From positions 1 to 64,000 of the forward strand of contig NZ_JAQCNH010000029.1 in the NCBI RefSeq assembly GCF_028275115.1: a DNA stretch of 64,000 nucleotides. Direction: 5' to 3'. This document shows, piece after piece, positions 48,287-51,739 of the stretch. This DNA comes from Halorientalis sp. GTDB lineage: Archaea > Halobacteriota > Halobacteria > Halobacteriales > Haloarculaceae. Numbering within the stretch: the stretch's first letter is position 1; every line of letters begins with the position of its first letter. Both the position numbers and the translations under genes were made by a program. The notes below the pieces were generated by a model, which searched no databases, was not told where the DNA came from, and saw only the letters and a list, made by a program, of their open reading frames with translations.

Positions 48287-48308
48287 ACGTTGTCTGGTTC
48301 GTACGACG

Positions 48309-48317
48309 TAATAAAAC
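48309..48317 (-). promoter_or_regulatory. TATA box of the AI-2E transporter gene
   Basis: The minus strand reads GTTTTATTA 23-31 nt before the ATG at 48286, giving an essentially leaderless transcript. Confidence 0.55.
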
Positions 48318-48635
48318 CGAACCTGGAGTTTCACGGTCAGAAACTCGGTGTCGCCAGTCGGACCGGTCGGTCACGCCGTTCGGTCTGACGACCGGCCCTG
48401 GCCGCTCTGTCAGTCTCTGTCACGGGTTCCGTACCGACGACGGAATCCACGGCGGGCCCGCGCGACACCCGCTGTCGCGGATGTAGAGCGATGCGAGACC
48501 GGCGTTCCGATCACTGCTGTTGGCACCGGTGAGACTGTCTCCGAGCGGTTCCCGGAAAACGAGTGCCGTACTGAAACTTCTCACTCGTTGCTTATTGACA
48601 AATTGATACGACATCAATCCGAGCGGAACAGGGGG

Positions 48636-48642
48636 ATTTATT
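48636..48642 (+). promoter_or_regulatory. TATA box of the actin-like gene cluster
   Basis: ATTTATT lies 25-31 nt before the ATG at 48667, right for a leaderless start. A further A/T-rich stretch (TTGCTTATTGACAAATTGATACG) lies about 45 bp upstream. Confidence 0.55.
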
Positions 48643-48666
48643 CTCTTGGGCCTCGCACACTCAGAT

Positions 48667-49743
48667 ATGGCAAAAGGATTAGACGTGGGAACGATGAACA
48701 TATTGTCAGCTAGACAGGACGGCTCTGAGACGGTCTTCGTTCAACAGCGGAACTCCTTCGTGGAAATCGAGTACTCCGACATGGCCGAGCAGATGCTTTC
48801 CCGGAGCGACGTCCTACACATTCGGAAAGACGAGAAGGTGTACGTGGTCGGTGACGACGCTCTCAACTTCGCGAACATATTCAACAAGGAGACCCGGCGG
48901 CCGATGCAACACGGGATCCTCTCGAGCGACGAACAGTCAGCCATTCCGATGATGAAGCTGATACTCGAGCAGGTCGTCGGTGAACCGGACTACCCGGGGG
49001 AGCGGTTGTACTTCTCCTCACCAGCGGATCCGATCGATTCGGACCTTTCGACGCTGTATCACCAGAAGACACTCGAATCGTTCATCGACGACATCGGGTA
49101 CGACGCCGAACCCATCAACGAGGGGATGTCCGTTATTTACTCCGAACTGGCGGACAACTCGTTTACCGGCCTGGGTATCTCCTTCGGCGCAGGAATGACC
49201 AACGTCTGTCTCTCGTACTACGCCGTCCCGGTGATGAAGTTCTCCGTCGCGCGTGGTGGCGACTGGGTCGACGAGCAGGCCGCACAGGCGACGGGAACGC
49301 CGGTCGACAAGGTCACCTCGATCAAAGAGGAGGACTTCGAGCTCGACTTCCAGACCGACGTCGGCGGTGTCGAGGGTGCGCTGAGCATCTACTACGAGAA
49401 CCTGCTCGATTACGTGGTCGAGCGTATCGTACAAGAGGTCGACGAAGAGGACATCGAGGAAGGACTCGACGTGCCCGTCGTTGTCACGGGTGGGACGGCG
49501 AGTCCGGACGGCTTTCAGGACCTGTTCCGCGACCACATCGAAGACGCCGAAATCCCCTTCAGCATCAGTGATGTCACACACGCTTCGGAACCGCTGTACA
49601 GCGTGGCACGCGGTGCGCTCGTCGCGGCGCGGTCCGACGAGGAAGAACCCGAGCAGGACGCGGCCGGAGCCACCGAAGAAGCCGGAGGCAGGACCGCAGA
49701 CAAGCCGACTCAGGAAGCGGCCGAGGCCGCCGAAGAGAGCTGA
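48667..49743 (+). CDS. Actin-like ATPase of the salactin/volactin family
   Basis: Start [21 protein letters not shown] (358 aa). Actin-fold nucleotide motifs: phosphate 1 [10 protein letters not shown], phosphate 2 [21 protein letters not shown] and adenosine [17 protein letters not shown]. Blocks [22 protein letters not shown] and [23 protein letters not shown] agree with the haloarchaeal actin salactin, which forms dynamically unstable filaments in Halobacterium; the assignment is from memory of that protein. The acidic tail ends AAEAAEES. It heads a cluster with three small genes. Alternative: another MreB/Alp-type filament protein. Confidence 0.8.
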
Positions 49744-49859
49744 GGTACTCGCCGGTCGAATCCGGCGAGACCTACTGAGAGAGTCGGCAGCTACCGGGTT
49801 GCCACGACCGGCCGGTCACTGCTGAAACAGTTCTCCAAACGTTTCACACATCCGCTACC

Positions 49860-50111
49860 ATGCAATGCCCCCGCTGTGACGCCGAGATGGCCGTCTACAC
49901 GCTCGAAAACAAACGGTCACTCTCGTGTAACAAGTGTCATTTCGTAGGTATTTCGATCGATCACACGTCCGAGCGTCGGGCCTCTGAATCGTGGGCAGCC
50001 GCGCTCGACCGGTTCCGTACGGGGACCGGCTTAGCCGACCGAGAGGCCACAGATGCCGAAGGCACGAGCGACGACGTCGACGGGGGCGAGCGGGACGAGA
50101 CGGCCTCCTGA
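49860..50111 (+). CDS. Zinc-ribbon protein (83 aa)
   Basis: MQCPRCDAEMAVYTLENKRSLSCNKCHFVGISIDH: Cys pairs CPRC and CNKC form one zinc ribbon of the TFIIB-like (zf-TFIIB) kind. A helix RRASESWAAALDRFRTG and an acidic tail follow. It starts 116 nt after the actin gene and ends 13 nt before the next gene. It may bind nucleic acid or bridge proteins. Confidence 0.8.
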   Translation: MQCPRCDAEMAVYTLENKRSLSCNKCHFVGISIDHTSERRASESWAAALDRFRTGTGLADREATDAEGTSDDVDGGERDETAS

Positions 50112-50124
50112 GGGTGGTGTGATT

Positions 50125-50565
50125 ATGTGGGTCGAGAAACAAGCCCGCGACATGCCGGAGTTACGTATACGCGAGGAGCAGGCCGAGCGTCTCGCCGAAT
50201 TACGCGAGGAGCTCGCGACAGCACATGCGGGACCGTACGCTTCAGTTGCGGCCGAGGATGCCATGGAGTATCTGCTCGACCTCGCCGACGCGACCAGTGA
50301 CCTGGACCCACCGGTCGAGTCGGAGGCGGGGTCGGCGCCCGCAGGTGATAGCACGGCGGAGACCGAAGAATCGACCGCGAGTGATGCGTCCGGAGCGGGG
50401 CAGACCGACGCGGACGAGCTCTTCGACCTGCTGGAAACGCACTCTGAGAAGTGGCGTGAAGCGTCCGGCGACGAACCGTACGAGGTCGACCTGCCTGGCG
50501 GTGAGACGACGACCGTCCGGACGAAAGACGACGTGAAAGCGACGTTGTTCCGTGAGTATCGATGA
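50125..50565 (+). CDS. Ribbon-helix-helix-like protein with acidic linker (146 aa)
   Basis: The start MWVEKQARDMPELRIREEQAERL is chosen because GGTGGTGTGAT just upstream resembles a Shine-Dalgarno site; Met at 50152 (MPELRIREEQ) is possible. Residues 10-60, ELRIREEQAERLAELREEL...GPYASVAAEDAMEYLLDLADA, have the strand-helix-helix layout of RHH DNA-binding proteins. An Asp/Ser/Thr-rich linker leads to a C-terminal domain DELFDLLETHSEKWREASG...TKDDVKATLFREYR. The function is unknown. It could be a DNA-binding partner of the actin. Confidence 0.72.
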   Translation: MWVEKQARDMPELRIREEQAERLAELREELATAHAGPYASVAAEDAMEYLLDLADATSDLDPPVESEAGSAPAGDSTAETEESTASDASGAGQTDADELFDLLETHSEKWREASGDEPYEVDLPGGETTTVRTKDDVKATLFREYR

Positions 50566-50777
50566 GTCTGCTCGGTCGGATACGGTCGTGGCTACGCGGG
50601 GCCGACGGTTCCGATGACGACAACGCCGAACCGAGTGAGCGACCCGCCGACGGGGACGGTAAGCGGAGACTCGATCCAAGCAACGTCACCGAGGTTCGCA
50701 GTTCCGAGACGGGCGGCGTCGACCCCGTGGAAAAGCTTCGGAACGTCGACGCGGACGACGAGGACGACAGTTCGTGA
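50562..50777 (+). CDS. Small acidic protein (71 aa) at the end of the actin cluster
   Basis: MSLLGRIRSWLRGADGSDDDNAEPSERPADGDGKRRL... has a short amphipathic basic helix at the N-terminus (LLGRIRSWLRG), which could touch a membrane, followed by a disordered acidic body. Its ATG overlaps the stop of the RHH-like gene (ATGA, 50562-50565), so the two are coupled. The overlap is the main support that it is real. Confidence 0.68.
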   Translation: MSLLGRIRSWLRGADGSDDDNAEPSERPADGDGKRRLDPSNVTEVRSSETGGVDPVEKLRNVDADDEDDSS

Positions 50778-50839: not shown

Positions 50840-51739
50840 ATGACCGAACGGTCCCCGCGGAAAAACGTCTTGTTCAAGTGGTACAGACAGTATATCGGGG
50901 AGCCGACCACGGATACGGAAGTGTATCTCGGGTTCGGCCTCTTTTTTGGAGGCTGTGCCTTCGCCGGCCTGGGTCTCCTCCTGTTTCTCGCGGGGACGGC
51001 GGTTTACGGGCTTCGGGACGGCGGCTACTTCGCGCTGGCCCAGCCGGGTTACTTCCTCGCGATGTTGTCCGTTCCCGCGGTAGCACTGTCGATTGTGGTC
51101 CTGCTACCGACCAATCGAACCCCCACCGTCGCAGGGTACGGCGGGGCCGTGTTGACGGTCGTCGCTGCCACTGCGTTCCTCCTCGCGTACCCGGACCAGT
51201 GGTTCGAGTTCGGGACACGGAACACGCTCGCAGTCGTCGGACTGTATGCGATCGGGATTACCATCCTCATCGCCGTGGCGGGCAGCGCCCTCGTCGCGCA
51301 CCGGGTCGAACAGGCACAGAATTCGGTCACGAAATTGGAGGACAGTGGAGGCGACGCGAACGAGACCGTGACGACCGAACAGGTCGAGTCGGACATCGAC
51401 GACGCGATGTCCGAGGTCGATCTCAACTGGGGCGGGGTCGAGCGGGAAGACCATCGCCGACTGGAGTTCACCCCGGAAGAGGACGGGGTCACCAGCGAGA
51501 GCGTGGACATCGATGCAGAACGGACTGTCAGTCCGGGCGGGGTCGATTCGGAGGTGGAAGGGCTCAAACAGCTCAAAGGCGAGAACAACAACGTCGACAC
51601 CTCGACGACCAGCGTCGACGACCAGACGGCTGCGCTGAACGAACTCAAGCGGGAGAAACAAGCAGGCGGCGATGTCCCGACAGAACGGGATGAGAAGGGT
51701 TTGTTCACGCGTCTCGTCGACTGGCTCCGTGGGTCCTGA
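50840..51739 (+). CDS. Four-helix membrane protein with long cytoplasmic tail (DUF7139-like)
   Basis: A 299-aa protein. After a basic start (SPRKNVLFKWYRQYIG) come four helices at about 28-55, 72-92, 98-118 and 126-150. The tail of about 145 residues contains a coiled-coil-like segment (HRVEQAQNSVTKLEDSG) and a Lys/Glu-rich helix LNELKREKQAGG, ending LFTRLVDWLRGS. That end resembles the amphipathic end of the preceding 71-aa protein. A TATA-like CATTTAGTA (50806-50814) suggests its own promoter. The function is unknown; the position hints at a membrane partner of the actin cluster. Confidence 0.75.
   Translation: MTERSPRKNVLFKWYRQYIGEPTTDTEVYLGFGLFFGGCAFAGLGLLLFLAGTAVYGLRDGGYFALAQPGYFLAMLSVPAVALSIVVLLPTNRTPTVAGYGGAVLTVVAATAFLLAYPDQWFEFGTRNTLAVVGLYAIGITILIAVAGSALVAHRVEQAQNSVTKLEDSGGDANETVTTEQVESDIDDAMSEVDLNWGGVEREDHRRLEFTPEEDGVTSESVDIDAERTVSPGGVDSEVEGLKQLKGENNNVDTSTTSVDDQTAALNELKREKQAGGDVPTERDEKGLFTRLVDWLRGS

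Follow-up and report, generated by a model that had tools for sequence, protein, structure and literature searches.

Volactin, an actin of Haloferax volcanii, is needed for the timely change of the cells from rods to disks; its filaments are dynamic, have been likened to those of ParM, and touch the membrane by their tips, and its discoverers suggested the existence of as yet unknown volactin-binding factors (PMC10869688). The same actin acts in compression-induced multicellularity (PMC7617734). Salactin, the actin of Halobacterium salinarum, aids DNA partitioning at low ploidy, and its gene has been reported to show poor synteny (PMC10746226). In the open-access literature searched, we found no described partner of volactin and no mention of HVO_2014, HVO_2016, or DUF7139.

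The locus considered here lies in a 64,000-nucleotide stretch of DNA from Halorientalis sp. (GCF_028275115.1, contig NZ_JAQCNH010000029.1, positions 1-64,000, forward strand), hereafter termed the window (Table 1). A first-pass annotation had recognized a cluster of four open frames, encoding an actin-fold ATPase taken to be salactin, an 83-aa zinc ribbon, a 146-aa RHH-like protein, and a 71-aa protein with a basic amphipathic N terminus, and had read them as a possible ParMR-like system. All four frames are indeed present, and relatives were found for each of them. The cluster had been thought to end at 50777, but the very next gene encodes a DUF7139 membrane protein that proves to be the most constant partner of the actin. 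The 71-aa frame overlaps the 146-aa frame by ATGA. The conserved part of the latter begins only at its second methionine (position 50152, giving 137 aa) and, as this residue is common to all 41 of the 41 aligned members, 50152 may be the true start of the RHH-like gene. A TATA-like element is similarly placed in the volactin upstream regions of several relatives (L003, L018, L073, and L123); hence, volactin probably has its own leaderless promoter. Bacterial-type promoters and terminators were also sought, with nothing useful emerging.

Table 1. Features of the volactin locus in the window
Feature	Coordinates	Strand	Basis and remarks
TATA-like element GATTTATT	48635..48642	+	Sequence; about 25-30 nt 5' of the volactin ATG
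Volactin, actin-family ATPase, 358 aa, acidic low-complexity C-terminal tail	48667..49743	+	PF25216, E=2e-134; the only volactin gene of this genome
Zinc-ribbon protein, 83 aa, CxxC...CxxC then conserved H..ESW..A..RF	49860..50111	+	84/86 volactin genomes, 0/60 others
RHH-like protein, called as 146 aa; beta-alpha-alpha-like N-domain joined by an acidic linker to an alpha-beta-beta-beta-alpha C-domain	50125..50565	+	
71-aa protein; basic amphipathic N-terminal helix MSLLGRIRSWLRG, acidic linker, conserved LDPS.VTEVR...PVEKL motif	50562..50777	+	
DUF7139 membrane protein of the volactin type, 299 aa; four TM helices followed by a cytoplasmic tail	50840..51739	+	PF23600, E=1e-38; model
Volactin-specific DUF7139 tail; DID.AM..V.L.WGGVE, V..L..LKGG, DDQTAAL.EL, C-terminal amphipathic helix	51347..51739	+	

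The actin-fold assignment is borne out by a match to the volactin family, PF25216, that covers the whole length of the profile (positions 1-321 of 321) with 448.6 bits against a cutoff of 35. The identification as salactin had to be abandoned; the same protein scores only 13.4 bits against the salactin family PF25229 (cutoff 27.1, E=0.04) and 19.9 bits against the NCBIfam salactin model NF053533 (cutoff 400), and a separate, true salactin gene is found elsewhere in the same genome (G000:C63, E=1.3e-177). The actin of the window is thus volactin. A sequence comparison with solved structures places the actin-like ATPases 5ljw and 5jyg nearest to it (E about 1e-4). We also observed volactin domains in much longer proteins of about 780 to 1180 aa, in which the actin domain is followed by a long coiled coil and a C-terminal hydrophobic segment (L114:14812-18363, L115:15480-19004, and L119:3485-5812, all +); a second volactin match in a long frame occurs in about 25 of 146 genomes, every one of which additionally has an ordinary volactin. 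Further, volactin-family actins are present in two uncultured huge-phage records of 485 and 595 kb (L155:7938-8981 and L156:8001-9020, both +), where they match PF25216 with E values of 2e-68 and 3e-67 and show about 35% identity; a scan of viral contigs for volactin returned none.

Surveying a sample of 146 Halobacteria genomes that are at least 90% complete, with presence scored as a strong match, we found that the constant partners of volactin are the tailed DUF7139 protein and the zinc ribbon, with the RHH-like gene being frequent but optional. A strong volactin match is seen in 86 of the 146 genomes. The volactin-type DUF7139 tail is present in all 86 of these, the zinc ribbon in 84, and the RHH-like gene in 74, with none of the three occurring in any of the 60 other genomes; the corresponding Fisher values (2e-42 for the tail, 3e-39 for the zinc ribbon, and 3e-29 for the RHH-like gene) are descriptive, the genomes being related and the genes often linked. 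The 71-aa protein is found in only 17 of the 146 genomes, all of which also possess the RHH-like gene and volactin. Nine genera are mixed for the presence of volactin, and in each of them the core genes switch together. In one genome (G060), scored as lacking both volactin and the DUF7139 tail, a fused remnant joins a DUF7139 N terminus to a volactin C terminus (L136:4187-4627, +), pointing to the joint loss of the two genes by deletion. The RHH-like gene is absent from 12 of the 86 volactin genomes, and no match to it was detected in five Haloferax genomes other than that of H. volcanii, all with volactin, that were reached through their loci; as these five genomes do without it, the RHH-like gene is not part of the core.

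The partners differ in how closely they keep to volactin in the genome. In 72 of the 86 genomes, no more than 6 kb separates the tail from volactin. Most of the unlinked cases belong to a single genus (g13), in which volactin and the tail gene are some 79 kb to 1.8 Mb apart or sit on different contigs; the volactin-less genomes of that genus (G065, G098, and G134) are also without the partners. The ParMR-like proposal had been staked in advance on synteny between the actin and the small genes, and the RHH-like gene fails that test despite its strict co-occurrence: of the 74 genomes that have it, only 15 place it at most 6 kb from volactin, and 26 place it that close to the DUF7139 tail. At 81 volactin loci, that of the window and 80 others, tblastn recovered DUF7139 77 times, the zinc ribbon 70 times, the RHH-like gene 11 times, and the 71-aa gene 5 times, the last count rising to 8 with profile searches. 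The commonest order is DUF7139, volactin, and then the zinc ribbon on the opposite strand, and in most relatives DUF7139 is directly upstream of volactin, with a median gap of 97 bp. A second arrangement, zinc ribbon-RHH-71-aa-DUF7139-volactin, is found in a genome of the same genus (G111, loci L084/L123) and at L002, L003, L006, and L063. In Halorubrum-like genomes, the zinc-ribbon, RHH, and 71-aa genes are divergent from DUF7139, and volactin can be distant (L118, L132, and L133). As volactin lies upstream of the other genes in the window, rather than after DUF7139, the local operon structure differs from that of relatives; this volactin-first order is a local rearrangement or possibly a matter of assembly. 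Some of these genes also occur on smaller replicons: a 410-kb replicon of Haloarcula marismortui, pNG700, carries DUF7139, volactin, zinc-ribbon, and RHH-like genes together (L157, 104499-115488), annotated as hypothetical, and Halostella pelagica has the RHH-like gene on a 100-kb plasmid (CP040681.1, 73533-73676) and volactin on the chromosome (L027).

The DUF7139 protein of the window matches PF23600 with 132.7 bits (cutoff 30). The family as a whole is far more widespread than volactin, being present in 144 of the 146 genomes and usually in several copies each, and it is the tail that sets the volactin-type copy apart: the paralogs that we read end in a Cys-rich stretch or are shorter, and the one paralog that was scanned has DUF7140 as its tail. 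A model of the window protein (pLDDT 73.5, 27 sequences) shows four long helices at 25-168 followed by a low-confidence tail, whose short helices (179-191, 236-247, 260-275, and 286-297) coincide with the conserved motifs. The last of these is amphipathic like the N terminus of the 71-aa protein, with hydrophobic moments of about 0.4-0.65, and the modelled tail helices may make contact with the membrane or with volactin. A fourth DUF7139-like stretch in the same genome lies about 40 kb from the volactin locus (L140, G000:C121 near 90197-90610), in a 986-aa frame with repeated WRWRLVDADG-like units.

In members of the RHH-like family, the conserved part opens with M-[P/K/Q] and continues with a strand-like stretch and two helices, after which an acidic linker leads to a conserved C-domain with the consensus LL..H.DKW...RY.V.LPDG...TKDDV.A.LF..Y. 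An AlphaFold model of the window protein (pLDDT 77.9, 41 sequences), with an extended N terminus, helices at 17-35 and 43-58, an acidic linker, and a C-terminal alpha-beta-beta-beta-alpha domain, fits an RHH monomer joined to such a domain. The structure prediction suggested by the first-pass annotation is thus compatible with an RHH fold, but Foldseek returned no significant match; weak hits to plant TCP domains, which we take to be RHH-like, had E values of about 5-9 and probabilities of 0.14-0.33 and were not counted as evidence. Likewise, hhalign of the family against six haloarchaeal RHH_1 proteins gave a modest signal that stood above four controls (20% probability, P=0.001), but no Pfam RHH model (PF01402 and relatives) matches any of the 41 members at E<=0.01; a PDB sequence search also retrieved nothing for the family. 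Taking these results together, an RHH fold is likely and DNA binding putative. Strand position 14, which is expected to face the DNA, is Glu or Asp in 31 of 41 members, and the N-domain, about 51 aa long, averages a net charge of -9; six RHH_1 domains of the same genome, at 39-46 aa, range from -3 to -9, the comparison being rough owing to the differing lengths. The linker contains a Rho_N domain in ten members and an HHH_5 domain in two; as some lineages have thus acquired these domains, nucleic-acid binding by the RHH-like protein is plausible, and we regard them as the best evidence for it. A weak RHH match in another genome turned out not to be an RHH gene but a C-domain-like stretch that ends an apparent polyphosphate kinase (L147, G041:C1 near 1003522, E=8e-6); the C-domain may, therefore, be more widespread than this family. 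As for the 71-aa protein, the basic amphipathic nature of its N terminus holds up, with a hydrophobic moment of 0.61 and a charge of +3.

From the genes, their families, the strict co-occurrence, the specificity of the tail, and the added DNA-binding domains, we infer a membrane-anchored volactin filament system, comprising volactin, the tailed DUF7139 protein, and the zinc ribbon, to which some genomes add a DNA-binding adaptor or regulator; this we hold to be reasonably probable. Volactin would form dynamic filaments, as published for Haloferax volcanii, with the DUF7139 protein as its obligate partner, held in the membrane by four TM helices. The cytoplasmic tail of the latter, mostly disordered, would offer its short conserved helices as binding sites for volactin, the probable place of contact being the membrane-anchored tips of the filaments. 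A second constant partner is the zinc-ribbon protein, which would act as a regulator or adaptor. The RHH-like protein, an optional accessory carried by the majority of volactin genomes, is most probably a nucleic-acid binder that either couples the filaments to DNA or regulates the genes, and in a minority of lineages the 71-aa protein might add a second membrane-binding amphipathic helix. Against this reading, it can be argued that co-occurrence does not amount to interaction, as linked genes are gained and lost together; the separation of the tail gene from volactin reflects no more than one or two independent events (g13 and perhaps G049), and the tail could bind something other than volactin. 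The acidic strand face of the RHH-like protein and the deviating gene order of the window also weigh against it. One alternative casts the tailed DUF7139 protein as a transporter or sensor that uses its tail for signaling to volactin, and hence to the cytoskeleton, instead of as a structural anchor. A polytopic membrane protein whose tail is long and disordered would suit this role, as would the presence of paralogs with other tails in nearly all genomes, which implies a general role for the TM part; nevertheless, Pfam and NCBIfam scans found no match to any transport or sensor family, and we consider this quite unlikely.

The RHH-like protein admits two further explanations. A ParMR-like partition system, in which it would bind a centromere-like site, link the DNA to volactin filaments, and thereby move the DNA, draws support from its occurrence only alongside volactin, from the HHH_5 and Rho_N insertions in its linker, from the published ParM-like dynamics of volactin filaments (PMC10869688), and from its architecture, which recalls that of ParR (PMC5016525) in setting a distinct C-domain behind the RHH-like N-domain. 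The association of an actin with an RHH-like gene that prompted the original proposal is real, but the linkage and centromere tests fail. No parC-like direct repeats are present in 48287-48700 or 49700-50170, with few or none in most relatives, and the intergenic DNA of the window holds no convincing palindromes; the divergent region of one relative (L132) is richer in repeated 7-mers than its shuffled versions, the stretch tested reaching into coding sequence. Likewise, the acidic strand face, the usual distance from volactin, the volactin genomes that lack the gene (those of Haloferax among them), its location on a different replicon in Halostella pelagica, and the published role of volactin in cell shape rather than in partition all speak against such a system, which we therefore view as distinctly improbable. 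Alternatively, the RHH-like and zinc-ribbon proteins might be transcriptional regulators of the volactin and DUF7139 genes and not filament parts at all. Both folds are common among small regulators, the co-occurrence with volactin is strict, and the divergent placement of these genes from DUF7139 in Halorubrum-like genomes is a common position for a regulator. However, the divergent promoters inspected share no conserved palindrome, the long acidic linker and well-conserved extra C-domain exceed the needs of a simple repressor, and the RHH-like gene is usually unlinked from volactin, which leaves this explanation on the unlikely side.

The survey offers two named candidates for volactin-binding factors, the DUF7139 membrane protein with its perfect co-occurrence and the zinc ribbon with its near-perfect one, for an actin that drives cell-shape change and tissue-like development in Haloferax. 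Given the RHH-like gene, it is further possible that volactin also touches DNA in most of the other haloarchaea that have it. At its most ambitious, the combination of volactin, the tailed DUF7139 protein, the zinc ribbon, and an RHH/HHH/Rho_N protein might constitute an actin machine that reaches from membrane to DNA in the majority of haloarchaea with volactin, similar in principle to ParM but built of unrelated parts and not confined to plasmids, although we rate this as rather unlikely.

Among the known systems, salactin resembles volactin in being a haloarchaeal actin that forms dynamically unstable filaments (PMC10746226), but it belongs to a different family from the window actin. The volactin of Haloferax volcanii (VolA, HVO_2015) belongs to the same Pfam family over its full length, and the window protein is 83% identical to its counterparts in Haloferax relatives, which have the DUF7139-volactin-zinc ribbon trio; the window differs from these in its rearranged order and its extra RHH and 71-aa genes. 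In the membrane tethers FtsA and archaeal SepF, a terminal amphipathic helix serves as a possible membrane or partner contact. By analogy, the terminal amphipathic helices of the 71-aa protein and of the DUF7139 C terminus might be likened to these, although no sequence relation was found and the DUF7139 protein additionally has four TM helices. The type II partition system ParMRC parallels the window in pairing an actin ATPase with an RHH-like protein that has a separate C-terminal domain; unlike ParMRC, the locus has no parC iterons, its RHH-like gene is usually unlinked and optional, and the constant partners of its actin are a membrane protein and a zinc ribbon.
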